In this document: positions 29,618 through 58,846 of the stretch, one piece after another | Layout of the letters: the number at the start of each line of letters is the position of its first letter | How positions within the stretch are numbered: position 1 is the first letter of the stretch | Source of the DNA: an uncultured Acidobacteriia bacterium | Lineage (GTDB): Bacteria; Acidobacteriota; Terriglobia; Bryobacterales; Bryobacteraceae | Reading direction: 5' to 3' | Length of the DNA stretch: 61,664 nt | NCBI GenBank assembly: GCA_903929755.1 | Contig: CAIYVZ010000155.1 | Location: forward strand, 1 to 61,664 | The notes under the pieces: generated by a model | Databases searched by the model: none | Seen by the model: the letters and a program-made list of their open reading frames with translations, nothing else | What the model was told of the DNA's origin: nothing | Position numbers and translations under genes: made by a program

Positions 29618-29693
<76 letters not shown>

Positions 29694-30192: not shown

Positions 30193-30725
30193 GAGAAGAG
30201 ACGGCAAAAACCAGCACGTTGCACGAAGAGATTGAGAGCCTCCGGCGCCTGACCGCCGGCGGGCTGAGAGAGAAGTATCTCGAAGTATTTGGAGAGGAGA
30301 GCCGGTCCGGCCACAAGCAGTTCCTGTTCCGCCGAATCGCCTGGCGCATCCAGGCAAATGCCCTGGGCGGGCTCTCCGAACGCGCCCGGCAGCGAGCGTT
30401 AGAGATAGCGGACGACGCCGACCTCCGGATTCGCGCGCCGAAGAATTTTCTGCAGATGCCGCTGGACGAGACGCGCACATCGGAATCGAGATGTTTGGCG
30501 TCCGCCGATCCGCGGCTTCCGCTGGACGGCTCGGACCTGAAGCGCCACTTCCGAGGCAAAGACATCGTAGTTCGGGTCCGCGAAGAGGGGTTTGAGCATG
30601 GCGGTAGGCTGTACCCTTCCCTGAGCGCGGCCGTCCGGGCCGCGACAGGCACCCGCTGGAACGGGTTCGCCTTCTTTGGGTTGGGCAATAAACCGGGGGC
30701 CAAACGTGGCGAGTACCAGCAATAG
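30189..30725 (+). CDS. DUF2924 family protein
   Basis: A 178-aa protein with the DUF2924 pattern: a helical N-terminus LHEEIESLRRLTAGGLREKY, then HKQFLFRRIAWRIQANALGG and, near the C-terminus, the DNA-binding-like block GRLYPSLSAAVRAATGTRWN followed by GFAFFGL. The family travels with large serine recombinases in phages and integrative elements and is thought to assist recombination, though its mechanism is unproven. It is coupled to the upstream small gene (ATGA) and overlaps the recombinase start by 20 nt. Confidence 0.88.
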   Translation: MREETAKTSTLHEEIESLRRLTAGGLREKYLEVFGEESRSGHKQFLFRRIAWRIQANALGGLSERARQRALEIADDADLRIRAPKNFLQMPLDETRTSESRCLASADPRLPLDGSDLKRHFRGKDIVVRVREEGFEHGGRLYPSLSAAVRAATGTRWNGFAFFGLGNKPGAKRGEYQQ

Positions 30726-32223
30726 CCCGACGAAAGTAATCCGCTGCGCGATCTACACGCGGAAATCGACTGAGGAGGGGCTGGAGCAGAACTTCAACTC
30801 CCTTGACGCCCAGCGCGACGCAGGCGAGGCCTACGTTCGCAGCCAGACCGGCGAAGGCTGGACGGTGCTACCCACCCTCTACGACGACGGCGGCTTCACC
30901 GGTGCCAACATGGAGCGGCCAGCGATGAAGCGCCTACTGGCCGACTCGCAGGCTGGAGCCGTCGACTGCGTAGTGGTCTACAAGGTGGATCGCCTCAGCC
31001 GCAACATCAGGGACTTCGCGAAGATCATGGAGGTCTTCGACAAGCACGGGACGACCTTCGTCTCGGTCACTCAGCAGTTCAACACGACGACGTCCCTCGG
31101 ACGCCTCACGCTCAACATCCTCCTTTCGTTTGCTCAGTTCGAACGGGAGATCATTTCGGAGCGCACGAAGGACAAGCAATCGGCTGCGAAGAAGCGGGGT
31201 AAGTGGACCGGCGGGCACTTGATTCTCGGCTACGACCTGGACTCGGAGAACGGTCGACTGGTGATCAACGCTGAAGAGGCGGAACGGGTGCGCTCGATTT
31301 TCCAGTGGTATCGCGAAGGCGAGTCGGTGTTCAGCATCGCGGCAAAGGTCAGCCGGTTGGGCTGGCGCAACAAACAGTGGACCACGCGGGCTGACAAAGT
31401 TTACGGAGGCCAGCCGCTGCGCCGCTCGCATCTCTACAATCTGCTCGCGAATGTCCTTTACACCGGCCAGCTTCGAGTTGACCAGACGTTCTATCCCGGC
31501 GAACACGAGGCCATCATTGACCAGGAGACGTTCGATCTGGTTCAGGCCCGCATCAAGGAGAACTCCGTTTGCGGCGAGAAGCGGGGGCGCACGAGGATGG
31601 AGTCACTCCTTCGTGGATTGCTTTACTGTTCCGGATGCGGCTCGGCGATGTACCAGACGTACGCGTCCAGCAGCGACCGCCGCTATCGATACTACGTTTG
31701 CGCGCGCTCACAGCAGCCGACCGACAACTCCTGCGTGGCTCGTTCTGTCTCGGCACCGGCGGTGGAGGACGCCATAGTCGCCAGCGTGCAACGGGTGAGC
31801 CTCCATCCGCAGGTGTTAGCGGCGGCCGCGCAATTGATCCGCCAGAGGCTAAATGACGAGATTGCTCGGCTGCGAGAAGAACTGAGCGGCGTTCAGGTCC
31901 GGGTGAAGAACTGGAAGTCCCAGGTGGCGCGGCTGCGCGAGCCCTCGGATGATCGCAAGGCCGAACTCACTGGCCAAATCAGCATCGGTGAGGCCCGCGC
32001 CATCGAACTCAAGCGGGAGATCATGCTCCGGGAACGTGAGCGCATGGAGGGCGACCTGCACAAGACGATGGAGCCCTTCGGTGCGTTGTGGAAGGCGATG
32101 AACATGCGGGAGCAGGGGCTCCTGCTGCGGCAAATGATCGAGAAGGTGGGTTACGAGGGCCGCACGGGCAAGGTTACTGTCAGCTTCAAGTCGGCCAGCA
32201 TCAAACAATTATGCGAGGAGTAA
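30706..32223 (+). CDS. Large serine recombinase
   Basis: A 505-aa site-specific recombinase. The resolvase domain starts with RCAIYTRKSTEEGLEQNFNS and LDAQ (catalytic serine in RKS), with VVYKVDRLSRNIRDF and FERE-x-x-SERTKDK after it. A recombinase domain with a zinc ribbon follows (LLYCSGCGSAMYQ, with a later CARS region), then a long coiled coil (about 385-455). GTG 30706 is chosen because it gives a short normal N-terminus inside the DUF2924 end. It is a good candidate for the integrase of this element, although serine integrases rarely use tRNA genes. Confidence 0.93.
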   Translation: MASTSNSPTKVIRCAIYTRKSTEEGLEQNFNSLDAQRDAGEAYVRSQTGEGWTVLPTLYDDGGFTGANMERPAMKRLLADSQAGAVDCVVVYKVDRLSRNIRDFAKIMEVFDKHGTTFVSVTQQFNTTTSLGRLTLNILLSFAQFEREIISERTKDKQSAAKKRGKWTGGHLILGYDLDSENGRLVINAEEAERVRSIFQWYREGESVFSIAAKVSRLGWRNKQWTTRADKVYGGQPLRRSHLYNLLANVLYTGQLRVDQTFYPGEHEAIIDQETFDLVQARIKENSVCGEKRGRTRMESLLRGLLYCSGCGSAMYQTYASSSDRRYRYYVCARSQQPTDNSCVARSVSAPAVEDAIVASVQRVSLHPQVLAAAAQLIRQRLNDEIARLREELSGVQVRVKNWKSQVARLREPSDDRKAELTGQISIGEARAIELKREIMLRERERMEGDLHKTMEPFGALWKAMNMREQGLLLRQMIEKVGYEGRTGKVTVSFKSASIKQLCEE

Positions 32224-32745: not shown

Positions 32746-34251
32746 GTGACATCTTCTGTTAGCCGTAGCCGCGGAGTTTTTCCGGTTGTGGCGCTATCGG
32801 CATTCATCGACGCTATTCGGGATTCAGGGTACCGGTCACCGGCGCACGCGCTTGCGGAATTGGTGGACAATTCGCTGGAAGCGAAGGCACACAGCATCAA
32901 TATTACTATTCAAGATGATCCTCAAACCGGCGTGGGGCAGGTCCGCGTGATTGATGACGGATGTGGAATGCCCCCCTCAACGTTACAGTTGGCCCTCCAG
33001 TTTGGGGGCAGTACCCGCTTCAACGAGCGTACCGGAACTGGACGCTACGGAATGGGCCTGCCGTGTAGCGCTCTCAGCCAGGCGCGCCGGGTCGACGTAT
33101 ACAGTTGGCAGTCGCCTTCACAAACATGGTGGACGTACCTCGATGCCCGCACGATCGCTAGCGGCTCATGTGTGCAGATTCCCGCACCAAAGCGCGCTCC
33201 AGTGCCTTTGCCCGCTCACAGCCCAAGCGGCACAGTTGTTGTGCTCTCTGATTGTGACCGCTTTGACCGATCACCTTTGGTAGCGGGAGATATTACAAAC
33301 AATCTAGGACGGATCTTTCGGCGAGTGCTCATCGGAGGTGCATCTGTGTCGGTCAATGGTGAACCAATCGGCCCCGTTGATCCATTGTTTACCGCAGCCC
33401 ATCACAAGATCGTGCAAGGGACTCCATATGGCCCAACGCTGGAGTTCCGGATCCGTGCACCCTTGGGGACGACCTCCACGGTGCGCGTGCGGTTCGCCGA
33501 GTTGCCCGTAAGGACACTCCATGTGCTCTCAAATGCAGAGAAGGCGGGTGCCGGGATCACGAAGGGCGCAGGTGTTTCAGTGGTCCGTGCTGGCCGAGAA
33601 ATCGACTATGGATGGTACTTCATGGGATCGAAGCGCAAGGAGAATTACGACGATTGGTGGCGCTGCGAGGTGGAATTTGAGCCTGTTTTGGATGAACTCT
33701 TCGGGCTTACGCACACGAAGCAGCGCGTCAACCCCACCCGGGAACTAGCGGCGGTACTCGTACCGCACGTAGAGCCGATCGCCAGGGTCCTGAATCGCCG
33801 CGTTAGAGAGGCATTCCAGCAGGTCCGATCCCCGCAGCACGATTCGAATGCGAGCCGACGAGCGCAGAGCAGAGACAATCAATTAGAACCCCCGCACACG
33901 ACTAGGCGCTCGAGAAATGGTTCTGCAGCCGAGCCGGACAACGCCGGCATTACCGGTCTGCAATACCGGACACTGAGATCCTCGATGGGGGAAAGCGAAC
34001 TTTTCAATGCAGAGCTTGTGGGAAGAGTGCTCACTATGACTGTTAATACTGACCATGCGTTCTATGAGCAACTGCTCGCTCCGCTCATGCGGCAGCGTGT
34101 TGTGAGAACGTCTGAAGCCATGGCGCCGCTTGAACTTCTCTTGCTCGCCTACTGCCGGGCAGAGACGAGCCTCCGTCACAAGGCCGACAAGCGGATCGCA
34201 CACCATCTTCGTAAACAGTGGGCGGAGGCACTCAATGCATATGTTGGCTAG
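32746..34251 (+). CDS. MORC/MutL-like GHKL ATPase (defence-island component)
   Basis: About 501 aa. The GHKL ATP-binding fold is clear in the first 110 residues: HALAELVDNSLEAKA (N-box Asp-Asn), VRVIDDGCGMPPS (G1) and RTGTGRYGMGLPCSALSQA (G2). A second domain like the transducer of MORC/MutL/Hsp90 ATPases follows (about 170-350; SVVRAGREIDYGWYFMG, DELFGLTHTKQRVNPTRELA). The C-terminal 150 residues are poorly conserved, with a low-complexity linker. Bacterial MORC-like ATPases are known in restriction-type clusters and probably clamp or remodel DNA. The start is uncertain (no ATG); GTG 32746 is the best option. It heads the plus-strand half of the island, 12 nt before the DruA-like gene. Confidence 0.82.
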   Translation: MTSSVSRSRGVFPVVALSAFIDAIRDSGYRSPAHALAELVDNSLEAKAHSINITIQDDPQTGVGQVRVIDDGCGMPPSTLQLALQFGGSTRFNERTGTGRYGMGLPCSALSQARRVDVYSWQSPSQTWWTYLDARTIASGSCVQIPAPKRAPVPLPAHSPSGTVVVLSDCDRFDRSPLVAGDITNNLGRIFRRVLIGGASVSVNGEPIGPVDPLFTAAHHKIVQGTPYGPTLEFRIRAPLGTTSTVRVRFAELPVRTLHVLSNAEKAGAGITKGAGVSVVRAGREIDYGWYFMGSKRKENYDDWWRCEVEFEPVLDELFGLTHTKQRVNPTRELAAVLVPHVEPIARVLNRRVREAFQQVRSPQHDSNASRRAQSRDNQLEPPHTTRRSRNGSAAEPDNAGITGLQYRTLRSSMGESELFNAELVGRVLTMTVNTDHAFYEQLLAPLMRQRVVRTSEAMAPLELLLLAYCRAETSLRHKADKRIAHHLRKQWAEALNAYVG

Positions 34252-34263
34252 TAAGGACCATTC

Positions 34264-36291
34264 TTGACAAGCGGGACAAATATCACGATTGCCCCCACCC
34301 TGGAGCGCCCAGCGCGCCGAGCTTTTAACGGTCACGTTTGTCGCCTCGCAGAGATGCTTGCCCGTGATCCCGAAGGCGTGGACAAGGCGGTAACCGCATT
34401 CCGCTCAACCTTGCATGGACTGAATTCGTGCCCTTCTACCGAGACACTCAAGTTGCTCCTGAGTCTGAACGTGCTTACAGACTTGATTCTTCAGGGATGG
34501 ACGCTGCGCATTGAAGAGGAGAGTGTCGCGATTGCCTACGTCACGCCAGACGAGGATATAGCCAAGGCAAAAGCGGCGGTCCGACGCCGACACCTGATAG
34601 AGCGCGACTCGCAGCTGCGTGAACCAGCAGTTGCCACTTTTATCCGCAGCATGGAGCAGCGCCGCCTAACCACATCGGGATGGCACTCGATCTACTCACT
34701 AATGAGGGACGGGAAGGACCTGGCGGAGCGTCTCCGGCAGAGCACCGCTATCGCTGACGACCAGTTGCGCCTTGATGCCCTTGATGGCATCATTGCGCCC
34801 TACATTCAATTCGTGGAGCCCGAGGTCCGCTGCCAGCATACGGGATTGTTGTTAACAGATGTATGGCGGTACTTTCGCCATACATGGACCACGGCGTATC
34901 GCAGTGTGCCCGGTCGTTCAATGATGATCCTCATTCGTGACGCGGCAGCGCCCAATCACCCCGTGATGGGCATTGCTGCCCTTGGGAGCGCCGTTGTTCA
35001 ACAGCGTGTCAGGGACCAATGGATCGGCTGGGACGCGGAAGCTGGTGTTGCCGCACTCTTGGAAGTCCCCTCAGTGAGCACTGCAAAGTGGCTACACAAA
35101 GAACTCGACGAGCGTATACGCTCAACATATGTCAAGGATCTGATAGAGTCAGACGTCCTGACGCGCAGGGAACTGTCCCGCCCTATCGACGAAACTATCG
35201 CTCGACTGCGAGCGGAAGGGGACAATGCCATCAAGCGACATCGTCAGAATCCCCAGAAGGCGCTCCATAAGAGTCACACGAAGACCGGGAGCCTTTCAAA
35301 CACCGCTTGGGAGGAGCGCGCGCGATCTCAGCTTTTCCGGGCGAAGCGCTGTCGACTACTTGCGACCCTCCTTGGTATTCGCCAAGTGTTTGCAAAGCAC
35401 CTCGACGAACTGCGTAAGGATCTCATTGCTGCGGCTTTCTCGTCGCAACACTTTCGCAATAGTGTGGCGCAATTGCTCCGGATGATCAAGGCTGAACGCG
35501 TTGGCATTTGCATGATGGACATTACGGTGTGTGGAGCAGTTGCTCCTTACAATACGCTGCTCGGCGGAAAACTCGTCTCGGCGCTGATGTGTAGCCCCGA
35601 GGTGACGCAGTTCTATGCCCGTCGATATGGACAGCAACAGAGCCTGATCGCATCAAGCATGGCCGGCAAAGGTGTCATCCGGCACCCAAGTCTTGTCTTG
35701 CTGTGCACGACCAGCCTCTATGGGACAGGCGCTAGCCAGTACAACCGTATCAAGATTCCGGTCGCCGAACTGGGAGGCACCCACGACGGAGTACTAGAAT
35801 ACAAGGCCCTCGGCTTTAGTATCGGATACGGGTCGTTTCATTTCAGTAACGAAACTGTTGGAATCATCAACACGCTGCTTGCCCGCACGAATGGCGGCCG
35901 CAAAGTGAACAGCATTTTCGGCGAGGGCGTGAATCCGCTATTGCGGAAGATCCGGGAAGGTCTTGATGCTGTCGGCTTGCCAAGCGACCAATTGCTGCAA
36001 CATGGGAATCGGCGAATCGTATATGGCATCTGCCTGGCAAAGAACTTTAGGCAGGTTCTGCTGGGGCTGCACCGGCGTCCCCAATTCCTTTTGCCCCAAC
36101 TGCGCCCGCAACAGTCCACCGAGGCCATTAGTGCCTACTGGCGACGCCGCTGGCTTGATGCCAGAGCGCACCGCCCCGGCATACTCGAAGCCATTGCGGC
36201 GCACACTTTGGACTATCCCATGAAGCATGGAGCGCAGGTATCGCTACCTGTTACTGAGTCGCCGACTCTATTCAGCGCCTTAGACGACTAG
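34264..36291 (+). CDS. Large DruA-like (DUF4338-type) protein
   Basis: A 675-aa protein beginning with TTG, with AAGGA about 6 nt upstream. The region RQ/QRVRDQWIGWDAEAGVAA (about 247-262) resembles the R-D-x-(F/W)-IGW motif of DUF4338, the domain of Druantia protein DruA. Later blocks DITVCGAVAPYNTLLGGKLV, VLLCTTSLYGTGASQYNRIK, GFGSVHFS-like and NSIFGEGVNPLLRKIREGLD suggest a GNAT-like core interrupted by a helical insert (about 290-400). Typical DruA proteins are near 300-400 aa, so this is nearly double. The biochemical activity of DruA is unknown to me. The family call is by recollection of motifs and should be checked. Confidence 0.65.
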   Translation: MTSGTNITIAPTLERPARRAFNGHVCRLAEMLARDPEGVDKAVTAFRSTLHGLNSCPSTETLKLLLSLNVLTDLILQGWTLRIEEESVAIAYVTPDEDIAKAKAAVRRRHLIERDSQLREPAVATFIRSMEQRRLTTSGWHSIYSLMRDGKDLAERLRQSTAIADDQLRLDALDGIIAPYIQFVEPEVRCQHTGLLLTDVWRYFRHTWTTAYRSVPGRSMMILIRDAAAPNHPVMGIAALGSAVVQQRVRDQWIGWDAEAGVAALLEVPSVSTAKWLHKELDERIRSTYVKDLIESDVLTRRELSRPIDETIARLRAEGDNAIKRHRQNPQKALHKSHTKTGSLSNTAWEERARSQLFRAKRCRLLATLLGIRQVFAKHLDELRKDLIAAAFSSQHFRNSVAQLLRMIKAERVGICMMDITVCGAVAPYNTLLGGKLVSALMCSPEVTQFYARRYGQQQSLIASSMAGKGVIRHPSLVLLCTTSLYGTGASQYNRIKIPVAELGGTHDGVLEYKALGFSIGYGSFHFSNETVGIINTLLARTNGGRKVNSIFGEGVNPLLRKIREGLDAVGLPSDQLLQHGNRRIVYGICLAKNFRQVLLGLHRRPQFLLPQLRPQQSTEAISAYWRRRWLDARAHRPGILEAIAAHTLDYPMKHGAQVSLPVTESPTLFSALDD

Positions 36292-37484
36292 TCGATGCCA
36301 AAGACTTCGGTTGTGGCACTGATCCCTACGGTGATGACGCCTTCTGTCTCGCCTTGCCGAACATTCAGCAGACGGACGTGCATACCCTTTTGCAGAACAG
36401 TGTGCGAAATCGTCTGTGCCAACACAAGAACAACGGGCGTTTCTTTTGGGATTCCGGTTGCGGCGACTACCAACGCATCCCAACTGCGCGGCCCGCGACT
36501 AGCACCCACCTTAACCTCAATGTCCACCCAAGTGCCATCTCCCTCTTCCTGCCATTTCATGCGCGCAACCCAGTATTCGGAGCACAGTTGTCGGACACTA
36601 CAAAAGCGGCAATGCTCTGGTACAGGGTTCGCCACGGGTGGCGTGCTACTTACTGCGGCGAGCGCGGCCTCCCTTCTCTTTAGAAGGTCCACACGCAACG
36701 AGGAAAGCGTATCAGGGTCAGGCGGAGCAACGTCTTCGACGTGGTCATCGTAGGAGAGAAGCATTCGACTCACCGGAATGCCGTCTGGATTCCGCTCCTT
36801 GTCTGCAGCCCACAAAAGGGCATAAGTGCGAAGTTGTTCCGAATGCTGATCGGAAGGCACTCCTGTCTTAAACTCCCAAATCGTACATCGTCGGTTTTCG
36901 ATCTGCAAAAGGTCGACGATGCCAACGAAAGAGACACTGTCATCTCGGAGTCGCAACTCGTGGTACGAACCGCCCCATAGCTTGCCTCCGTGGGGGGCTC
37001 CTGTAAGACTAGAAGCCCGCGGGATGAGCGAGATGCGATTCAAGTGACGCTGTACTTGTTGTCGCATCGCGGGAATGTCTTGAACGAGGTCGTTTCGGAA
37101 TCTTTCGATCAGATGACCCATCCGCGGATTGGAGCGTTGGCGATCGAGGATACGATCAATTGTCTCCGTTAGGATCGCGGTAAATCCACCCATCTTGCGG
37201 AGCACCTGGATTACCTCAACATCAGATAAGTGGCTACACCCGGCCTCCGACAGCGCATTGCACACGCTCGACACTGTGGCATGTACAGTCTGCCCAGCAA
37301 GTGCTCGTGGGTTTGCCATTGGCGGGTACCCGTGCCCATCCCACAGGTTGGGGTATTCCGCTGATGTGAGCGCCCACTGCTTAGGACACGTTTCAATCTC
37401 TTTCAGCAGGCTGAAGTGCCACATCTTGGGTGCGGCAGGCCATTCACTGGGTGTGATGACAGTAAACATCGCCGTGGAACTCAT
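36288..37484 (-). CDS. PD-(D/E)XK nuclease with Cas4/AddB-like cysteine cluster
   Basis: A 398-aa protein. The nuclease core has VGIVDLLQIE (Asp 191), IWEFKTG (Glu 204, Lys 206) and the QLRTYALLWAA helix, the RecB/Cas4-type active site. Cys 33 (ETCPKQWAL) together with Cys 292, Cys 295 and Cys 301 (EHCRFCSVRQLC) matches the split four-cysteine iron-sulfur site of AddB and Cas4. A C-terminal beta-rich domain of about 90 residues is additional. It is the last gene of the minus-strand defence operon, 5 bp after the DUF1998 gene. Its stop shares the palindrome CTAG with the convergent DruA-like stop. It probably degrades invading DNA ends. Confidence 0.85.
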   Translation of the reverse strand: MSSTAMFTVITPSEWPAAPKMWHFSLLKEIETCPKQWALTSAEYPNLWDGHGYPPMANPRALAGQTVHATVSSVCNALSEAGCSHLSDVEVIQVLRKMGGFTAILTETIDRILDRQRSNPRMGHLIERFRNDLVQDIPAMRQQVQRHLNRISLIPRASSLTGAPHGGKLWGGSYHELRLRDDSVSFVGIVDLLQIENRRCTIWEFKTGVPSDQHSEQLRTYALLWAADKERNPDGIPVSRMLLSYDDHVEDVAPPDPDTLSSLRVDLLKRREAALAAVSSTPPVANPVPEHCRFCSVRQLCSEYWVARMKWQEEGDGTWVDIEVKVGASRGPRSWDALVVAATGIPKETPVVLVLAQTISHTVLQKGMHVRLLNVRQGETEGVITVGISATTEVFGID

Positions 37485-37489
37485 AGCCG

Positions 37490-39169
37490 TTACGCGTCCG
37501 CCAAGCCAAACGCGGAGAGGACTTTCGCTGAAGCGCGAGGCAAGTTGCGTCGAACGATCAATTCATCGACTGTAACCAGAGGCGTGGCAGAAAACTCGCG
37601 AACGTCCAAGAGTGCATCCTGGGTGGGCACGTCGCTACAAAGAGGACGGTTTACGTCGATAATGATTTGCTGGCCCTTGCCCGATATCAGAATTGGTGCC
37701 GTTACCGTACCTAAGCCCGGGATTGTGTAAGCGACTGATCTCCCTAGTGTTATGGCAGAATCATTAGAGCGACGCAGATCATAATAGAGCCTGTCGAGGG
37801 CTTGTTCGACTCGATTTGAAGGCAAGTTCATGGGTTCTCCGGTGAGAACGTGTCGGAGAAGCGCGGCACCGACGTGCCTGTCCAGCAAGTCGTGCTCAAA
37901 TTTATTTTTGTAGCTCCTGAGGCAGCGGTAGCACGATCGATCGCAACCATCCGGACAACTCTCAAGAATTCGCACCGCGCGCTCAAAAAGGGCACTGCCC
38001 AGTTTCCCGGCCTGTTTAGAAAAACCAGCACCACCGGGCAGCGTGTCGTAAAGATAAATCTCAGCCTCGATGCCGCGCTGCCCGTCCTCGGTTAGCGCAG
38101 GACGGAATTCCGCCTGTAATTCCTGCGCCTCGAGTTCGAGCAGTTCACATGCTGCCTTTGCAATGGCCTCACTTGCCGTACGTAGCGCAACATCTGTGGC
38201 CAAGATCCCCGGCAAGAGCCGGTGCGGCGGTCGTACGGCAAGAGAAACAAGCAGAACGTCTGTAATGAAATCTGTACCCAAAACGATTCCGGTGCTTGTC
38301 CCATCGCCGGGGCAGTTGGGATCCTTGCCACTGGGATAGGGCTTAGGGTGTGGCGCGAAAACGCTGTGTTGGGGGGATGCGCTGGGTTCAATGGAACCAC
38401 ACTTCGTGCAATAGTGGTATCCCTCGTCGCGCGGTCCACGGTTCGTTACCAAGAGGTGATTTTTAAGATGATAGTGACGTAGTTGTTCCGTCACCCCGAT
38501 CCACTTCAACGGATCCGACGGTGTTGGCGCCATGAGTTTGGCCCGAGTAGCATAGCTCTTCTCCGCCGGATCGTCGTTCGATGTGCGCTCAGGCTTCGCA
38601 ACGGGATGGGCGAACCCGGGCGGCCGAAGCCAGTAGCGCGCCTCGCCGAGAGTCGCTGTTCGACCACATGCAGGACAGTCCAGTCGCTCACCTTTACTGC
38701 CCTCAGTCAGCAACTGCGTGCGAGCATAGTGGCAAACAGAACACTCATAGTAGAGCCGCCGCTGTTGCCACGCGCGATATCGGTCACTGTTTACAGGTGA
38801 ATAAACTGCGCCCGAAACAAAGAGCTTGCCTGCTATCCACACTTCTTTCCCGGGCGCATATTGACTGAGCGCTAAGGCCAGACCTTGCGATGGCGTATAC
38901 CGAAACGCCGTTTTGTATGGCGTGGATTTATCCACGTCGAATACAAAGAATGTGGCCACATCGGTCGGAAAGGCGTACCGAGGCAGGATTCCTTTGTAGA
39001 GCAAACGGTCGAGCAGATATTCAGAACCTGGTGAGCGGTCGTCGCGTTCACCAGTTCCGTCCGCCGGAGCCTCCGCTCCGATGTCAACGACATCGTCCAT
39101 GATGGCATCAGTTGCGGCGGTAGTTGAACTCGAAGGCGACGGTGTGTCGGGTTTATTGGGTCGTGACAT
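37490..39169 (-). CDS. DUF1998 protein, DrmB-like
   Basis: About 559 aa. The C-terminal third has the DUF1998 signature: YLYDTLPGGAGFSKQ, then CPDGCDRSCYRCLRSYKNKF and HDLLDRHVG, a cysteine cluster that binds zinc or a similar metal. Two further cysteine pairs lie in the first half (CSVCHYARTQ...CPACGR; YHYCTKCGSIE). In DISARM this domain is the separate protein DrmB, while in Druantia DruE and in MrfA it is fused to the helicase. Here it is separate but overlaps the helicase gene by 17 nt, so they probably work as one complex. The ATG at 39169 has GAGG 6 nt upstream; a TTG at 39184 is less likely. Confidence 0.88.
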   Translation of the reverse strand: MSRPNKPDTPSPSSSTTAATDAIMDDVVDIGAEAPADGTGERDDRSPGSEYLLDRLLYKGILPRYAFPTDVATFFVFDVDKSTPYKTAFRYTPSQGLALALSQYAPGKEVWIAGKLFVSGAVYSPVNSDRYRAWQQRRLYYECSVCHYARTQLLTEGSKGERLDCPACGRTATLGEARYWLRPPGFAHPVAKPERTSNDDPAEKSYATRAKLMAPTPSDPLKWIGVTEQLRHYHLKNHLLVTNRGPRDEGYHYCTKCGSIEPSASPQHSVFAPHPKPYPSGKDPNCPGDGTSTGIVLGTDFITDVLLVSLAVRPPHRLLPGILATDVALRTASEAIAKAACELLELEAQELQAEFRPALTEDGQRGIEAEIYLYDTLPGGAGFSKQAGKLGSALFERAVRILESCPDGCDRSCYRCLRSYKNKFEHDLLDRHVGAALLRHVLTGEPMNLPSNRVEQALDRLYYDLRRSNDSAITLGRSVAYTIPGLGTVTAPILISGKGQQIIIDVNRPLCSDVPTQDALLDVREFSATPLVTVDELIVRRNLPRASAKVLSAFGLADA

Positions 39170-42100
39170 TGATAGCCTCGTCAAGAGCGCGCAGAGTTTC
39201 TTCTACAAGGTTGCTGAGCAAAGTGTCCCTATCAGATGAGTTCAGTTCGCGAGGGATCCACGCTTCGACTTCGTTGCGGAGTGCATCCCTATTGTCAATA
39301 AGCCATGAAGCGAAGTCGTTCCTGTTCAGAAGCGAACTATCGTTTCGGAACTCCGAAACCGTTCCCAACACAGAAAAGAGGGTTGCTTGATCCGCGCGGG
39401 GCACTCCAGGTAGGCGCTCTTGATGGTAGCGCTGAAGCAGGTAAGCCGTCACATGCCGCCGAACAATCTCGTAGTTGTCCATAGCCAAGGTGGGATCAGC
39501 GACATCGCCCCGAATCATCTCGTCGGGGAACGTAAAGTAGTGTTCATCATGGCTGTCTGCGCTTCCAAAGGCAGTCACAGTAGCAACTGCCGTACCGCGA
39601 CGGCCAGCGCGGCCCGCTCGCTGTTGATAGTTTGCCCGCGCTGGAGGCATATTTCGGAGCGCCACTCCGGAGAGTGAGCCGATATCGATGCCAACCTCCA
39701 TTGTCGTGGTGCACGAGAGAACGTCGATTGCCGGCCGATCCCGGCCCTTATCATCCGGCCCCAAGTCAACGTCTTGGAATAGAAGTTCATGCTCCTCGGT
39801 CTTAGAGAACACCTCACTCGCCTGTGCAGAACTGAGTTGCGCCGTGTGCTCGGCTGCCAAAATGGATACCGGTGCCTTTGTCGGATCCAGCAACGCATCA
39901 ATCGTGGGTTGGCGATAGTAGCTTTTGCGCGCCGTAAATACGGGGTCACTCTCAGGATCAAGGGGAATGGCCAAAGGGCGGCCGCAATTCACACAGCGGT
40001 CTGTACCGGGATATGGGCGCTGCGTTGTTCGGCAAGCGCGGCAGTACGCCCAATTGCCACCTACCGCTAGCGTGACCTGACTTCCGCGAAGCCTAAATTT
40101 CCCGCCGATCTGCTCCGCGAACATCTGGAGGAGTTGAGGGACCCATTGGGATTCGAATGTTTTTCGATCTTGCTTTGTCAAGAAGTTCTTGAGCTTATCG
40201 AATTTTCCGGTACTGTGTGGCGTAACCTCGTTTTGCCACCATTCGGGCGGCATCTTGTCAAGCCAGAACCCGTAGTTCTGCCAAATCCGCAACCAAGTCC
40301 GAACCAAAGCCAGCTTTTGAGATGGCGTTTCCGCAATCTGCGCAATAGGTGGCAGCTGTTGTATCGCGGCTGTATGAGTTTGGATCTCACTAAGCGTAGC
40401 GAGTGCCAAGGTCTCCAATCCGTAATAACTGTCGGTGAGGCACTCCAGAACTGGCCGAAGTATCGAAGCTGGAATCTTGGTGCTGCGCGCGTTAATCAAC
40501 AGCATGAGCATTCTGCCTGGATCGCTGAGCACTCCAGTATTCACCTGAGTGGTTACCTCTTGCTCCAGTATGAAAGTCTCGCCCGGCAACAACTCTGGCC
40601 GTACACGAACGTTTAGGATCTTGCTCGCGAGAACAACTGCGAGGCCAACGTCTTCGAGTGAGAGCAGCGTTGATAGCGAGGGATATTGTGAGAGGCGGTC
40701 GTACCCCCAGACGAGCAATGTGCGTATGACATCACGAGCGGAATAAGACTGAATATTGGGCGCAAGGCGAGCAGCGGTTTGTCGGGAGTCGGAGAAAAGG
40801 AGGACCTTTCGACCCCGAAGGGGCGCGAGGGCTGTCGCGGGCTGCGGTCCCGGTGGCTGTATCTGGATTTGCTTTGTGATCAAGGCTTGGAACGGCTGGT
40901 CGCCTTTGGTCTGGTGATCCTGCACGGACGTTCTTCCGTATCCGGCCGTTGTCTCGCACACGCCACATGGTCTAAACTCACCGGGTTTCCCGTTCCCCCT
41001 GGCGTTGTTGTCACCAACCGGCGCGAGTCGGTCCTTTCTCAAATAGACGTTTCTGGTGCGAGGACTTGCTGTCGCGGGATTGATGCGTCCCGTAATGAGA
41101 TCAATCTCCACTGGTTCTACGTCTGTACTCGAAGGTTCCTCCAGGAGGATGTCAATAGGCTCTAGTTCAGCGATGAGTTCCTTGTCGGTTCGGAATGCTC
41201 CGCCCGCTTCCGACCACAAGAAGTCTGGCGCGGCAACATTGTCCGTATATGCCCGTCCATATGCGGCCCCACAGTTCCTGCACGTGTACAACTCCAGCAC
41301 ACGTGCCCCGCACTCGCAAGCATCGCGGGGCTGACTGAACAGCTTGCCGGTTGGGCCTCCACGGTCTTCCGACGGCAGTGTGCTGCATTGAGAGTCGAGA
41401 CAGATCCAAAGCCCAGGGAGTCCGCGATGAAATGAATGGATGCGGCAGGGTAGGAGACCGGGTTCTGCAGGTACTCGCTTCGCAATGCTGCCGAGAGCCA
41501 ATAACGCGGTGACCGCCTGTTCTGCCACAAGCCTGTCTACCAATGGAAACAGCCTTTCAGCCAGGCTCTCGACGGGAAGCGCTTCCCTCATCGTTCGATT
41601 GATGAGCTCACTCATGGGAGGGAACGCTGCAAGAGCGGAATAGAGAGCGGGGCCAAGAGCATTACCGGTTGCTTGCCGGTAATCCAGCAAAGGCCTGATG
41701 ATCGCCATGCGTTGATCATCTTGGTCGGCTGCGTAGAAGGCTGACAAGTCGAGTGCGGCCATTAGTTGAGCGTCGGCAAGGGTGCCCGCTCCCGCATTTT
41801 GACGAAGCTGTAGTTGTCCTCTGATGACATCGAAATCTTCTGCCTGCTTGCCCGTGAGTTGAGCGGCAAATTGCCCCGCGTATTCCGGGTCTTTAAAGCT
41901 GGCACTTGTGCAGATGACTTGCAGTTGCTCCGCAGTAATCTCCAGTCGCTGCCGGAGGCGTCTCAACAACAGAGCCACCTCAGCCCCAGCTGCTCCGCGA
42001 TACAGGTGAGCCTCGTCGACAACCAGTAAAAGAGTGTTCTTGTGGTCCTGATGCAACCACTCCCGCGTCTTGTCAAAGATAGGACGCTCAAGCGGCCGCA

Positions 42101-43025
42101 TGAGCATGTACTCAAGCATGGAGTAGTTTGTGACGAGAATGTCCGGAGGAGCCTGGTGCATTTCATGCCGCGTGAACAATTCTGGATCGCTCGGCATGGT
42201 GATGCAACGCTTAAACACTTGGTTCTGATCATCAAACCAACGCGTTCCTTTGGCGCCATACCAAGCAGCAAGATCGGGTTTTGCGGGCCACTTGCCACGC
42301 ACCCGAAGAGCGTCTACTAGTCCCCTTGCTCGTTGCTGCTCCGGGGACGGTGATCCTGCCGCCTTTTCCAAATAAGACACATAGTAGTCGCCTATCGGCT
42401 TGAGTCGCTGTTGGTCCTTCTTGGGATCGCGGACTCCTGGGTAGAGCGTCCTGCTCGTGTACCGGCCAAACCTGGCAGGCCGTCCGGCCCATTGCATAAA
42501 CTGGTCGGTAATGCTTTTGTCCCCAAACAGCAAGCGAAGACGTCCGAGTTGATCGTTCACGAGAGCGTTCATCGGATACAAAATGAGTGCTCGAACTGCC
42601 GGGAGCCTTTGAAATGAACTAGCGTTTGTTCGTGCCTCAACTGCGAGCTTTCCGAGGATGGGGAGCAGGAAAGACTCGGTTTTCCCTGATCCAGTACCGG
42701 TCATAACGACAGCACTCTTGCCATCGACCAGTACGGTTCGCAAGGAAGCCGCTTGGTGAGCGTAAGGCGGGTCGTAAATAAGCCTGCCTGTGACACCCGC
42801 GAGCACCTGTGTGACCGCAGCGTCGAGCCCGGGGATCGACGCGAACTTGGCAGCGGACTGATAGCGTGGCGTAGTCTCGATGTAAGGGCGTTGACTGATG
42901 ACCTCTGGTTGATCGAGGAGCGTACGCCGCAAGGCTACCAGGGTTGGATGGCTGATGTGGTAGGTCGCCTCCACATAATCCCGCAGCGCTCGATGCAGTT
43001 CAGCGATGGTCTCTCCAATGGTCAT
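39153..43025 (-). CDS. YprA/DrmA/DruE-like DEAH helicase
   Basis: A 1290-aa superfamily 2 helicase. Motif I is VVMTGTGSGKTESFLLPIL (about 107-125), then LILYPMNALVNDQLGRLR, ILVTNYSMLEYMLMR, and motif II VVDEAHLYRGAAGAEVA (about 335-350). Motif IV/V elements are KVLLFSDSRQTAARLAP and LSCTTTMEVGIDIG, and motif VI is YQQRAGRAGRRG (about 1133-1144). Cysteine clusters lie between the two RecA lobes (around 590 and 1020). This is the architecture of the MrfA/YprA family used in DISARM, Druantia and Dpd defence. Its DUF1998 partner follows with a short overlap. It begins 2 bp after the 357-aa gene. Confidence 0.9.
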   Translation of the reverse strand: MTIGETIAELHRALRDYVEATYHISHPTLVALRRTLLDQPEVISQRPYIETTPRYQSAAKFASIPGLDAAVTQVLAGVTGRLIYDPPYAHQAASLRTVLVDGKSAVVMTGTGSGKTESFLLPILGKLAVEARTNASSFQRLPAVRALILYPMNALVNDQLGRLRLLFGDKSITDQFMQWAGRPARFGRYTSRTLYPGVRDPKKDQQRLKPIGDYYVSYLEKAAGSPSPEQQRARGLVDALRVRGKWPAKPDLAAWYGAKGTRWFDDQNQVFKRCITMPSDPELFTRHEMHQAPPDILVTNYSMLEYMLMRPLERPIFDKTREWLHQDHKNTLLLVVDEAHLYRGAAGAEVALLLRRLRQRLEITAEQLQVICTSASFKDPEYAGQFAAQLTGKQAEDFDVIRGQLQLRQNAGAGTLADAQLMAALDLSAFYAADQDDQRMAIIRPLLDYRQATGNALGPALYSALAAFPPMSELINRTMREALPVESLAERLFPLVDRLVAEQAVTALLALGSIAKRVPAEPGLLPCRIHSFHRGLPGLWICLDSQCSTLPSEDRGGPTGKLFSQPRDACECGARVLELYTCRNCGAAYGRAYTDNVAAPDFLWSEAGGAFRTDKELIAELEPIDILLEEPSSTDVEPVEIDLITGRINPATASPRTRNVYLRKDRLAPVGDNNARGNGKPGEFRPCGVCETTAGYGRTSVQDHQTKGDQPFQALITKQIQIQPPGPQPATALAPLRGRKVLLFSDSRQTAARLAPNIQSYSARDVIRTLLVWGYDRLSQYPSLSTLLSLEDVGLAVVLASKILNVRVRPELLPGETFILEQEVTTQVNTGVLSDPGRMLMLLINARSTKIPASILRPVLECLTDSYYGLETLALATLSEIQTHTAAIQQLPPIAQIAETPSQKLALVRTWLRIWQNYGFWLDKMPPEWWQNEVTPHSTGKFDKLKNFLTKQDRKTFESQWVPQLLQMFAEQIGGKFRLRGSQVTLAVGGNWAYCRACRTTQRPYPGTDRCVNCGRPLAIPLDPESDPVFTARKSYYRQPTIDALLDPTKAPVSILAAEHTAQLSSAQASEVFSKTEEHELLFQDVDLGPDDKGRDRPAIDVLSCTTTMEVGIDIGSLSGVALRNMPPARANYQQRAGRAGRRGTAVATVTAFGSADSHDEHYFTFPDEMIRGDVADPTLAMDNYEIVRRHVTAYLLQRYHQERLPGVPRADQATLFSVLGTVSEFRNDSSLLNRNDFASWLIDNRDALRNEVEAWIPRELNSSDRDTLLSNLVEETLRALDEAINVTTQ

Positions 43026-43027
43026 TG

Positions 43028-44101
43028 TTAGCCGCAGTCTCCTTTTGCTTGCATGATATCAATCCACAGATGTTGCGCGAGAAACTTCTCCACAAACGAC
43101 AAGTCGCCGACTGGAATGTTGTATGAAAACAGAGCCCCGGGTTGTGTAACAGGCTCTCCGATGACGTCGAGTTGCCTCTGAACCCAACGCGGGACAGGCG
43201 AAGCGAAGCTCACGCAGATATCGGTCCGGTTTGGAACTGGGGTCATTCGGGCATATTGGGGCCTGTTGTTCCGTGCGTCGATTGCCGCTTGGAGCCACCA
43301 AGCCTCGTCGCAACCACGCCACGTGTTCCCTGTAACCGGCAAATCGACAAGAGAGATGAGTCGTCCACTCTGCAATTTGATAAAGGACCACAGTGGCGCA
43401 CCGTACCGCTGAGCACGTCTTGCGACAAAAACGCCATCCCCGGCGGCTGCCTTCCATCGGCGCTTGTAGTAGTGGACAGGTTCGGATGGGTCGAGTATCG
43501 TAATGCCCGTCGGCTCACTAGATAGCCCGCTTCCTGCCAGAAGTCCGACATATTTCGCAAATGTCTGATCGGGTGTCGCAGGTTTCGGTGATTGCAGCCA
43601 CAGTGCGTAGGGCACCTCGAAATAGCCGGCCTCCTTAAGAAGTGTCTGCGCTTTTGCGCCGATGCTGGACGCGAGGGAACGCACATGACCTCGGTAGGTT
43701 AGCGAGCCGCTCAAACTCGGCGGCAGCCACTCTACCGACTCGGGGCAGACGCCTAGTAAGAGGATTCGCCCGCTGCCCAACACGACGAACGTCGGTGGTG
43801 CCGGATACACCACCTGTCCGCTACCTGCCATTCTCTCGACTTCAATGAGATCACCGTATGAAAGGAGTTCGTCCACGATGGAGTCGATTCGTGAATCGAA
43901 CTCTTCGGTTGCTACCAGTCCGCGAAGAGAATCCGTCACACTACGCGCCAGTGAGCGCGCCGAGCATGGCGACTGAAAGCTAACCGCCCTTCGGACAAGT
44001 GCCGCCAGAACTTCTGGTCCTTCTAATTGATATCGGCGCGGATCGAAGCCGACAGCCTGCACCACGACCTGCTTCGCGCCCTCAATGGACAATTGCCTCA
44101 T
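43028..44101 (-). CDS. Unknown defence-island protein, 357 aa
   Basis: I do not recognise this family. The N-terminal 120 residues are helical and look like winged-helix DNA-binding modules (GPEVLAALVRRAVSFQSPCS; IDSIVDELLSYGDLIEVERM). A short beta segment follows (YPAPPTFVVLGSGRILLLGV), reminiscent of proteins encoded near DUF1998 helicases. The C-terminal half is rich in W, Y and P (HYYKRRWKAAAGD, WWLQAAIDARNN). The ATG at 44101 overlaps the stop of the 961-aa gene (ATGA), and its own stop is 2 bp before the helicase start, so it is firmly part of the operon. A longer open frame upstream is rejected. Confidence 0.75.
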   Translation of the reverse strand: MRQLSIEGAKQVVVQAVGFDPRRYQLEGPEVLAALVRRAVSFQSPCSARSLARSVTDSLRGLVATEEFDSRIDSIVDELLSYGDLIEVERMAGSGQVVYPAPPTFVVLGSGRILLLGVCPESVEWLPPSLSGSLTYRGHVRSLASSIGAKAQTLLKEAGYFEVPYALWLQSPKPATPDQTFAKYVGLLAGSGLSSEPTGITILDPSEPVHYYKRRWKAAAGDGVFVARRAQRYGAPLWSFIKLQSGRLISLVDLPVTGNTWRGCDEAWWLQAAIDARNNRPQYARMTPVPNRTDICVSFASPVPRWVQRQLDVIGEPVTQPGALFSYNIPVGDLSFVEKFLAQHLWIDIMQAKGDCG

Positions 44102-46983
44102 GACCATTCCCATCCGCCTCGCAATGGTCCTGCTGATAGAGGTCGCGCGCCGTTGCCCACCTCGCTGGCCAACACAAGGTAACGGGCTACGCGAACAATC
44201 TGGTGGTATCTCACGAGAAACTGAAGGCCAACCTGCAGGCGATCTTTGGACCAAGGCGGCAGCGCTTCGGGTGCACTTGCAAAGCGGAGTGCGAATTCCG
44301 CAATCCACTGCGGCGCATTGTTCGGATCTGGTGATGGGATTGGCATACCCAGCGAGAGGAGAGGGAATAATCGTCGCGCTACGTATGCGGGACGCTCATG
44401 CGTTGACATTCTTAGAGCCTCCGATCGCATGGCTGGTAGCATGGCGCGAATCGAGTACTCATTGATAGAACTGCACAGCCTCCCTAATCCTGCCTCGTCG
44501 ACGGGTTGCTCAGTTGAGCCGAGCGTTTTAGTCTCTGGGTATATTAGATCGATGAGGGCCGAGTCGATTGTTGACAACACACGTGTTCGGAAGCTAAACG
44601 CTAGCGGGTGATGGATGATCCGTGCGTTCGCCCATCGCTCGTATATGCACACGAGTTCCGCGATCTTGTCTGCCTGTGGCCGGCGAGCAGCGAGTTTCGG
44701 CCTCAAACCGAGGCTCGAAAGTCCCTTTAGGATGATTGCGGGTGGAGTGATGATTCCTGCTCGAGCCATTTGATTCCGCGCAGAGAACAAGCCACTCGGA
44801 GGTGGGGTCGCTATAGAGGTTGCGAAATCCTTGCCTGGCCGTGTAGTCGCCTTATCAGGCTCGTCATACGGATACAGCTCAACAAATGTGCCATCATCAT
44901 CCAGGGCCTCGTTTATGAGGCGCAACCGAAATCCCTGGCTCGTGCGTTGGGCATTCCAACGCAGTGGGCGGCGGTCGTGTTCAAGCCGGACCACGGACGA
45001 ACCGAGATCGCCCGCCTCGAAGTAGAGCCGACATTCTTTGGCCTCATCGAAGTGATTGTCCAAGACAGGATTGCCGTTGCACTGATCCCGGAACGCGGCT
45101 CTCCACGCCTCGGCTGAGACGGGCATACGCATCGCCGGCATCGTCTTTGTGGCAAGTGCAGGTAGTCCGAACGCGGCGGCCAATTCGATACGCGGTGTGA
45201 CTGAGCGATTCTCTGGTCCATAGATATCGATCGATGCGGCACCACGCCAGAAATCATCTAAGGAAACTCGCTCAGGACTGACGGCGACACGAAAGAGTGA
45301 CTTGTAGGCTTCCGGTCTGGTTCGGGGCGAGCGGATGGAAATCTCCATCACGCCACTATGCTCTGCCGGATTTGAACCGGCATTCTGTACTCGCACCTTA
45401 AGTTGGTGGATTCCAAGATCGAGTTGCGGAAGAGCAACGAATATCGGTGACGACTGTTCAGTGGGCGTGGCTGTCAGACTAAACCCGCCGTCGAGGCTCA
45501 AAAGGGCTTTGCCGATTGGCTGGTCGGCCGCGATGCCGACAAGAATCTGATCCGTTACGAGCCACTCAGCCCGTCCCTCTCCATCCCATCCGGGAACTGA
45601 GAGGCCGGCAGGCCATATGCGGACGGTTTGCCAGACATTAAGACCAAGACGCTCAAGGTAGCGTGCGGTTTGTTGGTCAAGGAAGGAAGGCACATCAATG
45701 AGCGCCGCCTTGATGCCAGAACAACCCATTTTAACCGCAACTGCTGGCTTTTCAATTGGCAGTTCGCCTGCAGTCTTCGCGATGAGATATCGCTGGCCCG
45801 CTCTGACCGCGAGGCTTCTGATTTCGTAACCGATCCCATCTGTTCCAACCCTAAAGACCCACGTTGTTCCGGGGCGCAACAAGGAGTCCGCCCGGAAAAG
45901 TGAGGCTAGCGCCAAATCTCCCTTATCCAGAGAGATCATAACCTCGCCAGGCTTGGGCCACGCGGCTAGCGGAACTCGATGCGGACCATAAAGGAGCCAG
46001 CCCGGCGCCTGCCAGCGGCCGCCACCAACCCCAACGGAACAGCGACTATTCGCGAGCACGGACCGAAACTGGGGAAATCGCGCGACAAGCCCTGTTAATT
46101 CGGGCGTTTCGAAGTACACTCGCCACTCGGCGGCTTCGCGCACAACCAGAATGCGTCCCTCTAGGTCCGGGACATCGGCTTTTGAGATAGTGTTGGTGGT
46201 CGGTGCAGTCTTCGTCGTCGGCGTTCCTTTGGCGACTGTTCCCCGGACTGAGATCTTGCGTGCTTGATCCTGCGCAACTCGCAGCCAGTCTCTTGCGCGC
46301 TGTTCCTTTTCTAGATCCGCAATTAGTCGATGCAGCGTCTTGGGCAAAATGAAGACATTTGTGAGTGCGTCCCCGCTGAGCAGCAAAGCGGTTGCGATAG
46401 TACCGATCAGTGCATGTTCTTCCGCGAATTCCTGCAAACGCTTGACGGATCGTGTGCTTTCCGCGTGCAGATACCGACCTAAAGCTGCGGCGTCGGTCAA
46501 TAGTTGCGGCGTGAACTCGTAGCGCAGTTCATACAGGAGTTTGGCTAAGTGGTACTGCAGGTAGACCGGCAGTACCGCGTGTTGAATTGGCCAGGCGATG
46601 ATCGAAAACCAAGATGCCCACCGCCCGCTGGGTTGCAGCCCATGGTAGGACTTCTGGAAACGAACGAATCGATCGCGCAGCCAGTCACGCGGTCGCGAGC
46701 GACAAGTGGCCCACCCCGGAGTACTCTCCTCGAAGGTTTGCCAGTATTCTTCACCATCGTAGGTGTACCCCACTTCCGTGGCATATACGACCCACGGGAG
46801 CCAATAGGCATCCGATGGGGGACGAATCAGCAGGGATGCTCGAACATCGGACGCGAGGGTTCGGCGCTCCGCGTCATCGAGACCATGCTCCAGAGCAAAG
46901 ACGGGATGGCCGGTGGCAGATCGCTCCTTTGCCATCGCAGCGAAGTGGGACTGCAGGCGAGTTTGCCACTGTTCTAGTGTCAC
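44098..46983 (-). CDS. Unknown large defence-island protein, 961 aa
   Basis: The first gene of the minus-strand operon and not a family I recognise. The N-terminal 230 residues are mostly helical and aromatic-rich (WLPWVVYATEVGYTYDGEEY, FSIIAWPIQHAVLPVYLQYH). The middle (about 270-650) looks beta-rich with several immunoglobulin-like or sandwich domains (LDLGIHQLKVRVQNAGSN), and the last 230 residues are helical again. No Walker, nuclease or methylase motif is visible. A large beta-rich scaffold or target-recognition protein is a guess. Codon use and base composition are less GC-extreme than in the flanking phage genes, as for the rest of the island. Confidence 0.72.
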   Translation of the reverse strand: MTLEQWQTRLQSHFAAMAKERSATGHPVFALEHGLDDAERRTLASDVRASLLIRPPSDAYWLPWVVYATEVGYTYDGEEYWQTFEESTPGWATCRSRPRDWLRDRFVRFQKSYHGLQPSGRWASWFSIIAWPIQHAVLPVYLQYHLAKLLYELRYEFTPQLLTDAAALGRYLHAESTRSVKRLQEFAEEHALIGTIATALLLSGDALTNVFILPKTLHRLIADLEKEQRARDWLRVAQDQARKISVRGTVAKGTPTTKTAPTTNTISKADVPDLEGRILVVREAAEWRVYFETPELTGLVARFPQFRSVLANSRCSVGVGGGRWQAPGWLLYGPHRVPLAAWPKPGEVMISLDKGDLALASLFRADSLLRPGTTWVFRVGTDGIGYEIRSLAVRAGQRYLIAKTAGELPIEKPAVAVKMGCSGIKAALIDVPSFLDQQTARYLERLGLNVWQTVRIWPAGLSVPGWDGEGRAEWLVTDQILVGIAADQPIGKALLSLDGGFSLTATPTEQSSPIFVALPQLDLGIHQLKVRVQNAGSNPAEHSGVMEISIRSPRTRPEAYKSLFRVAVSPERVSLDDFWRGAASIDIYGPENRSVTPRIELAAAFGLPALATKTMPAMRMPVSAEAWRAAFRDQCNGNPVLDNHFDEAKECRLYFEAGDLGSSVVRLEHDRRPLRWNAQRTSQGFRLRLINEALDDDGTFVELYPYDEPDKATTRPGKDFATSIATPPPSGLFSARNQMARAGIITPPAIILKGLSSLGLRPKLAARRPQADKIAELVCIYERWANARIIHHPLAFSFRTRVLSTIDSALIDLIYPETKTLGSTEQPVDEAGLGRLCSSINEYSIRAMLPAMRSEALRMSTHERPAYVARRLFPLLSLGMPIPSPDPNNAPQWIAEFALRFASAPEALPPWSKDRLQVGLQFLVRYHQIVRVARYLVLASEVGNGARPLSAGPLRGGWEWS

Positions 46984-51579: not shown

Positions 51580-51592
51580 AAGGACAAAACGA

Positions 51593-52363: not shown

Positions 52364-52389
52364 CGATTCCAACAACAAGGAGACAAGAC

Positions 52390-57923: not shown

Positions 57924-57929
57924 GGTCGA

Positions 57930-58613: not shown

Positions 58614-58846
58614 GCCCGCAGGAAAATATTCTGGGCGACGACCCGCATGAAAGTGTCCCTACCGGCGTATATAGTAATCGAACGGCGAGAAGCGATTTAG
58701 CACTCGCCGGGCATCAGCACTTGAAAACTCGGTTCGGCAGGCGAGCGCAAAGCGCAGCAGCCCGAAAGAGCACCCCACAGATTAATCGAGAGACGGGACT
58801 CTCATAAAACTCCTTCCCATCACTTCGACGTCCGAAGTGTGCCTGA

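Follow-up and report, generated by a model that had tools for sequence, protein, structure and literature searches.

The window analysed here, a whole contig of 61,664 bases (CAIYVZ010000155.1) from the 6.86-Mb assembly of an uncultured Acidobacteriia bacterium (GCA_903929755.1), holds at 32557-46983 seven full-length open reading frames (ORFs) that probably encode a phage-defence system, which belongs to the Druantia family and is related to type I. In this system the short DruA appears to be replaced by a cassette of a GHKL-type ATPase and a long DruA (DruAL), which accompanies a core made up of p961, DruD and DruE and a separate nuclease. Because DruE, DruA and DruD are all present, we regard the locus as a Druantia variant and not as an entirely new system. 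It is not canonical type I, because genes for DruB and DruC were not found in the window and the genes do not form a single A-B-C-D-E operon. The variant is widespread but apparently unnamed.

Gene content and conservation of the locus

The seven adjacent genes form two converging units, GHKL and DruA on the plus strand and the five others on the minus strand, as the first-pass annotation had described at about these positions. The GHKL ATPase is encoded at 32746..34251 (plus) in an ORF that opens at 32557; the GTG at 32746, taken as the start in that annotation, is plausible, and direct reading of the sequence places an AAGGA-type site upstream of it. The protein matches HATPase_c_3 (Pfam, 4.7e-22), and the Bergerat-type residues E101, N105, D133, G135, G137, G162, R163, G165 and G167 (counted from 32557) are conserved in at least 93% of 38 aligned members, which agrees with the MORC-like character proposed earlier. 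Its closest PADLOC model is MzaB (6.7e-14, a weak resemblance). As defined in the available text of Iyer et al. 2008 (PMC2292703), MORC proteins sensu stricto combine the GHKL motifs with an S5 motif, GhXhhpXXRhl; the family consensus GVSILRAGREI departs from it at one position, where E stands for the expected hydrophobic residue. The second gene of the unit (34264..36291, plus) encodes DruAL, a DUF4338 (PF14236) protein of 675 aa that matches PADLOC PDLC00001 DruA1 at 2.2e-183 over model positions 57-669 of 675, as well as Pfam DruA (9.7e-35), and is the only PF14236 gene found in the assembly. Since the DruA1 model already covers the long DruA, its authors had seen part of the variant.

DruE, which is described as the one component common to all Druantia types in the accessible part of a recent report (PMC13192584), is encoded here by two adjacent ORFs. 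The N-terminal half (39153..43025, minus) is an SF2 DEAD/DEAH helicase of the YprA family that matches PADLOC DruE1 with 1459.9 bits (E 0, model 6-1271) and Pfam DEAD and Helicase_C, and it shares 35-62% identity (best segment) with the DruE proteins of 80 genome loci. The C-terminal half (37490..39184, minus) carries the MZB/DUF1998 region and matches the remainder of the same model (2.8e-138, positions 1268-1773) and Pfam MZB (8.2e-14). The DEAH helicase and DUF1998 protein of the first-pass annotation are both real, and they are two halves of one DruE rather than parts of separate systems. The ORF at 43028..44308 (minus; 426 aa, with the start inside this span) encodes a DruD homologue (PADLOC DruD1 1.3e-102, homology from residue 68), so that one of the two proteins previously regarded as unrecognised, the 357-aa one, is DruD. 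The other, p961 (44098..46983, minus), is an unclassified subunit that has no match in Pfam, NCBIfam or PADLOC, and an NCBIfam scan of the locus ORFs gave nothing above its cut-offs. The Druantia-like nature of the locus is thereby upheld by the matching DruA1, DruD1 and DruE1 models.

A model of p961 was obtained with AlphaFold2 (mean pLDDT 86.1, pTM 0.74) from an alignment of 61 rows, comprising 60 of 68 locus sequences and the window. It consists of helices up to approximately residue 253, a beta-rich region with Ig-like character (277-745), and further helices (771-944). Foldseek returned only weak, low-TM matches to Ig/macroglobulin-type arrays.

Conservation was examined by a DruE-alignment scan of the GTDB genome collection, in which the best 80 of at least 569 confirmed relatives were taken as loci. 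By a profile recount, 35 of these loci have GHKL and DruAL together, 1 has DruAL but lacks GHKL, and 30 have short DruA; the remaining 14 show no DruA, and 8 of these span 17.1 kb or less. The combination of p961, DruD and DruE is present in 66 of the 80; 34 of the 66 have GHKL and DruAL, 29 have short DruA without GHKL, and 3 have no DruA and span 6.6-17.1 kb. The seven-gene set is therefore conserved elsewhere, which the first-pass annotation had set as its own test: p961, DruD, DruE, GHKL and DruAL stand together in 34 of the 80 loci, 21 of them with the same family of Cas4-like nuclease. A chance cluster was also considered and is ruled out by this wide recurrence. In 30 of the 34 loci, p961, DruD, DruE and the nuclease, where present, converge on DruAL and GHKL as in the window, and 18 of the 21 loci with this nuclease are among them. 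The other four are arranged on one strand with GHKL-DruAL first (two) or last (one), or divergently (one). Halotalea alkalilenta (L019) has a form of six genes that all run in one direction. The 40 GHKL-DruAL rows of the tree belong to Actinomycetota (22), Pseudomonadota (7), Acidobacteriota (3), and Omnitrophota, Thermodesulfobacteriota and Gemmatimonadota (one each, making six named phyla), with 5 unassigned. The variant also occurs on viral contigs; a search of 50,697 phage records gave no match to the long DruA. Because of this spread over six phyla and viral contigs, the variant may be overlooked or misnamed by annotation tools in which DruB and DruC are expected.

Nucleases of the Cas4/AddB-like Fe-S type are characterized by a D, a (D/E)xK, a QxxxY and four Cys. 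The window nuclease (36288..37484, minus; Pfam PDDEXK_1 4.6e-15, PADLOC DruK 2.5e-14, Cas4 3e-7) has this complete set. D191, K206, Q217, Y221 and the cysteines C33, C292, C295 and C301 are present in at least 93% of 31 aligned members, whereas position 204 is E in the window and D in at least 93% of those members. By analogy, the four Cys would bind a predicted Fe-S cluster. In the 12 convergent loci without this nuclease, a slot of 2.0-2.5 kb is taken by another gene or gene pair. Six of them have an ORF of 658-695 aa; two of these ORFs were tested (L032 and L051) and gave helicase-type P-loop matches, and the one in L032, the single member compared with PADLOC, matches the NERD+UvrD model C3a187. 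In the other six, all from Streptomyces (L027, L035, L036, L039, L043 and L063), an ORF of 188-244 aa is followed by one of 397-399 aa. The smaller is DUF4365, which we take to be a PD-(D/E)XK relative, in the two loci tested (L027 and L035), and the larger matches PADLOC PDC-M02B in the one tested (L035). PDC-M02B is a candidate-defence protein in PADLOC, and the Streptomyces slot possibly holds another candidate system nested inside the first.

Exchange of GHKL and long DruA for short DruA

GHKL and long DruA form one cassette that has been exchanged repeatedly for short DruA. GHKL accompanies 35 of 36 long DruA proteins and none of 30 short ones in the 80 loci (Fisher p 5.6e-18 in a naive test that takes no account of relatedness). 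A tree of 90 DruE proteins was built after 7 distant rows of 97 had been dropped (L078, L084, L102 and L104-L107); on it, the GHKL label changes 10 times, and at least 9 of these changes are forced by starred branches. Among the 76 rows with DruA, 7 independent pairs could be formed; the type of DruA switched together with GHKL in 6 or 7 of them and never in the opposite sense (sign test p 0.016-0.031).

Correlations between protein distances in 35 loci lead to the same grouping. The value for GHKL and DruAL is 0.971, compared with 0.834 for GHKL and DruE, and the partial correlation of GHKL and DruAL given DruE is still 0.903, with 0 of 2000 permutations as high. Within the group of p961, DruD and DruE the correlations are 0.937-0.963 (p961-DruD 0.963, p961-DruE 0.952), whereas those between the two blocks are lower (0.81-0.88). 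The tight co-variation of p961 with DruD and DruE fits a structural core subunit.

The cassette was also found when long DruA served as the anchor instead of DruE. Four viral contigs were detected with long DruA, two of which had already been found through DruE (L131 and L133) and two of which were new (L132 and L134), and GHKL lies directly before DruAL in all four. Of 14 plasmid matches to long DruA, 11 cover at least 54% of the protein, and the neighbourhood survey took in 8 of these 11, leaving out Natribaculum, AArc-T1-2 and Hymenobacter HDW8. GHKL adjoins long DruA in three plasmids (L008, L009 and L128) and, by coordinates only, in Roseivivax THAF30; two tandem GHKL genes are present in L009 and L128.

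In a further group, comprising the haloarchaeal plasmids L011, L129 and L130 and Neobacillus mesonae (L087), long DruA lacks GHKL and is followed by an SspF-like gene, with SspG-like genes in L011, L087 and L129; L129 also has an SspH-like gene, and L011 one annotated as FtsK. In a Hymenobacter canadensis plasmid (L127), a single fusion protein combines DruA and an SspF-like domain. Druantia and phosphorothioate-type restriction may share DruA as an adaptor. A broader and quite tentative idea is that long DruA could serve as a general adaptor, joining swappable ATPase front ends (a MORC/MutL-like clamp or SspFGH/DndFGH-like genes) to Druantia-type back ends that destroy DNA. If so, a MORC-type clamp would gate the Druantia helicase-nuclease, which would be a prokaryotic parallel to the silencing of foreign DNA by MORC proteins. 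No Foldseek match of long DruA has an E value below 0.7, and no sequence relative was found in the PDB. Six of its 50 Foldseek rows are GNAT/MYST acetyltransferases (Eis, HBO1, NuA3 and three NuA4; E at least 3.9), and segments 417-441 and 510-518 look GNAT-like by eye; we treat this as a lead only.

Proposed action and competing readings

The available text on type III Druantia describes DruE as a helicase-nuclease that engages a duplex with a 3' single strand, and DruH as a likely upstream sensor (PMC13192584). Drawing on the analogy with MutL, Iyer et al. 2008 (PMC2292703) argued that MORC and paraMORC ATPases form loops in DNA or remodel it on behalf of neighbouring helicases and nucleases. 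For a GHKL-Shedu protein, direct restriction of phage has been reported (PMC12137116). On the basis of these reports, we propose GHKL-DruAL as a sensing or loading clamp and p961-DruD-DruE with the nuclease as the effector, and we infer the following order of action and DNA target. Together, GHKL and DruAL would act as a MutL/MORC-like clamp, gated by ATP, and would recognise DNA associated with infection or load on it. The clamp would then hand the DNA to a complex of p961, DruD and DruE and license DruE and the nuclease, with the SF2 helicase of DruE engaging a duplex with an exposed 3' single strand and the PD-(D/E)XK nuclease, encoded in trans, cutting the strands. A nuclease in trans would make sense here because type I DruE has at its C-terminus a Vsr-type nuclease domain that is predicted to be inactivated, according to the part of the report available (PMC12458937). 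No worked-out mechanism of type I Druantia, or role of DruA, came up in the accessible portions of the literature searched. The repeated exchange of short DruA for GHKL and DruAL is a natural experiment, which suggests that DruA belongs to the sensing or loading front end and makes this role directly testable by swapping the modules. It would also add a MORC/MutL-like clamp to helicase-nuclease immunity, and would bear on the question of how eukaryotic MORC proteins acquired their role in silencing foreign DNA.

Several observations weigh against reading the seven genes as one Druantia variant. Formal membership of type I fails on DruB and DruC, and the defence role is presumed from the family. 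The 80 loci are the best-scoring rows and are biased towards the kin of the window, and the DruE tree was built by a quick method that flagged several long branches. The genes are rare: p961 was found in 3 of 247 evenly drawn genomes of the phylum, including the window's own; for long DruA, the count in one actinomycete class was 2 of 296 genomes, including the seed genome. No DruA was detected in six loci spanning at least 23 kb (L074, L077, L078, L086, L090 and L091). In the viral contigs L132 and L134, GHKL-DruAL stands without a DruE detected in the available stretch, and the 16 kb surrounding the pair in Roseivivax L128 contain no annotated helicase; GHKL-DruAL may be an independent module, acting alone or with a distant effector. 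The Cas4-like nuclease is not universal (21 of 34 GHKL loci and 6 of 29 short-DruA loci), and it does not follow GHKL in the independent pairs.

Some of these observations would also be expected if GHKL-DruAL and p961-DruD-DruE-nuclease were two independent neighbouring defence units that merely travel together. The pair without DruE or an annotated helicase in L132, L134 and L128, the separate strands in 31 of 34 loci, and the two blocks of protein distances all point in this direction. However, 63 of the 66 loci with p961, DruD and DruE contain one kind of DruA or the other and never both, and the three exceptions are the short ones described above. Therefore, substitution within one system is indicated rather than random neighbourhood. 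All genes also lie on one strand in three loci, with GHKL first in two and last in one, and we consider independent units unlikely. It appears equally improbable that the locus is simply canonical type I, as current tools would call it, with p961 as a diverged DruB-DruC fusion. PADLOC does hold a 675-position DruA1 model in addition to DruD1 and DruE1, all of which match strongly, and p961 occupies the place of DruB and DruC, as seen when the order DruA-p955-DruD-DruE in Nitrosococcus watsonii (L007) is set against DruA-DruB-DruC-DruD-DruE in Pseudomonas putida (L010). One locus (L085) combines a DruB-like gene (PADLOC DruB1 6.8e-9) and a DruG/DruC-like gene (DruG2 9.2e-14, DruC1 3.1e-6) with DruD, DruE, GHKL and DruAL, from which it follows that the front end and the middle exchange separately. 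On the other hand, p961 has no PADLOC match at E 0.1, and its profile gave non-significant comparisons with DruB (hhalign P 0.011, probability 3.8%) and DruC (P 0.61), each represented by 4 sequences. GHKL matched none of the PADLOC models named as Druantia. The PADLOC DruB and DruC models found no match among the 10 + 7 window proteins scanned, and a wider search for DruB relatives led to one plasmid record already known and to genomes from which the DruB loci in the set had come (3 of 5).

The split of DruE raises the question of a decaying locus, because DruE lies in two frames here, while 63 of the 66 related loci keep DruE in a single ORF of 1800 aa or more. The others are L015, where DruE lies at a locus end, L062 (1139 aa) and L064. 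When the junction is aligned with 16 fused relatives, the break proves to lie within a variable linker and no conserved residue is lost; the upstream half stops just past the final helical stretch that is conserved. A likely ATG of its own, at 39169, opens the downstream half and overlaps the upstream stop, and in Mycobacterium sp. E2733 (L064) DruE is interrupted in this linker, too. On these two features a pseudogene was rejected, and the remaining ORFs have lengths normal for their families. We read the split, on this comparison of sequences, as gene fission between two domains and not as decay, and a degenerate remnant seems very unlikely. Least probable of all, to the point of being negligible, is a system of the DISARM or ARMADA type. 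Parts like those of both had been suspected in the first-pass annotation, and a YprA-family helicase with DUF1998 is indeed present, but the helicase half scores 1459.9 bits with DruE1 compared with 52.7 for DrmA, 105.4 for DpdJ and 77 for BrxHI, and the DUF1998 half scores 461.1 with DruE1 compared with 10.5 for DrmB. In DISARM, DrmA and DrmB are accompanied by a methylase (and a PLD protein). Consistent with the earlier remark that methylase and phospholipase are missing, Pfam, NCBIfam and PADLOC gave no methylase or PLD match in the seven proteins. ARMADA is defined by a methylase and a separate BrxHII-like helicase as partners (PMC12458937, in the part available), neither of which is among the seven genes. 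DISARM and ARMADA were accordingly rejected, as their partner genes are absent.

Carrier element and relation to known systems

The proposed location on a mobile element is confirmed by the flanking genes. The left edge is marked by a tRNA-Asn (29619..29693, plus; ARAGORN), which is the probable integration site; here the GC skew drops sharply, from about 0.17-0.2 to about 0.02. It is followed by a DUF2924 protein (30189..30725, plus; Pfam PF11149 1.4e-36) and a large serine recombinase or phage-type integrase (30676..32223, plus; Pfam Resolvase 3.7e-38, phrog_95 integrase 9.9e-118), and comparable pairs of integrase and DUF2924 genes adjoin the DruE loci of L062, L095, L097 and L099. To the right, phage-type genes identified with Pfam and PHROGs extend over 50027..61603 (plus), encoding a sigma factor, an exonuclease, a Sak4-like annealing protein, an ERCC4 nuclease, a RecD-like helicase, a primase and a terminase small subunit, the last of these (60926-61603, plus) at the end of the contig. 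Because the system is flanked by the integrase on one side and these genes on the other, it travels as cargo on a prophage or a phage-like element. Elsewhere in the window, no stretch of at least 12 bases of the tRNA is repeated, and the contig ends before the right boundary. Two ORFs after the system (47369-49373; 391 and 287 aa) have no match in Pfam, PADLOC or PHROGs; a homologue of the 391-aa protein (34.5% identity) lies approximately 7 kb before DruE in a planctomycete locus (L023).

Among systems that share single parts with the locus, GHKL-type ATPases occur in the prokaryotic MORC/paraMORC operons of Iyer et al. 2008 (PMC2292703), in MzaB of MZA, and in the GHKL-Shedu protein VcSduA (PMC12137116). 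The operons resemble the window in placing GHKL beside SF2 helicases and PD-(D/E)XK nucleases; however, their helicases, in the types described in the available text, are of the Rad25, SNF2 or DThhQ-motif kinds, and VcSduA is a single protein. Partners such as DruE, DruA, DruD and p961 are not described for either in the accessible parts of these two reports. A Cas4-like PD-(D/E)XK nuclease beside a YprA-family (COG1205) DUF1998 helicase was noted in 2017 as a predicted defence pair (PMC5704561); DruA, GHKL, DruD and p961 are not named in its accessible passages, and DUF4338 is absent from its text. A literature search did not find Druantia together with GHKL or MORC; it covered sources other than supplementary tables and subscription papers, and the original Druantia report was not sought by name.

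Two Rhodobacterales loci (L008 and L009) share the GHKL-DruAL-DruE core, with weakly p961-like proteins (24 and 36 bits) and, in L009 only, a DruD-like protein (31 bits). They differ from the window in having a NERD/SF1 helicase (Pfam NERD in L009) in place of the Cas4-like nuclease, a converging SNF2 gene, a gene of 316-333 aa, and very divergent p961 and DruD. Together with L074, which has DruE, NERD-like and converging genes and in which no DruA was found, they represent a still more distant version, with p961-like scores of 24-67 bits across the three. Two other loci (L086 and L091) have a deep-branching DruE, the same Cas4-like nuclease, weakly DruD-like proteins and extra large genes, including a BrxH-like helicase of 1496 aa in L086, and no DruA was found in the 23 kb of either; they are possibly a further Druantia-like class.

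The closest systems are two plasmid-borne ones. The sister variant on Nitrosococcus watsonii pNWAT01 (L007) shares p961, DruD and DruE with the window but has a short DruA, no GHKL, and all genes on one strand. Druantia type I on Pseudomonas putida pKF715A (L010) is alike in the DruA family, DruD, DruE1 with MZB, and the order of DruD and DruE. In contrast, the window has a long instead of a short DruA, an added GHKL gene, p961 in place of DruB and DruC, a separate nuclease gene, the DruA unit on the opposite strand, and a split DruE. The candidate new system of the first-pass annotation is accordingly best taken as a Druantia variant, and its new parts, as far as the searches reach, are the module of GHKL and long DruA, p961, and the separate, exchangeable nuclease slot.

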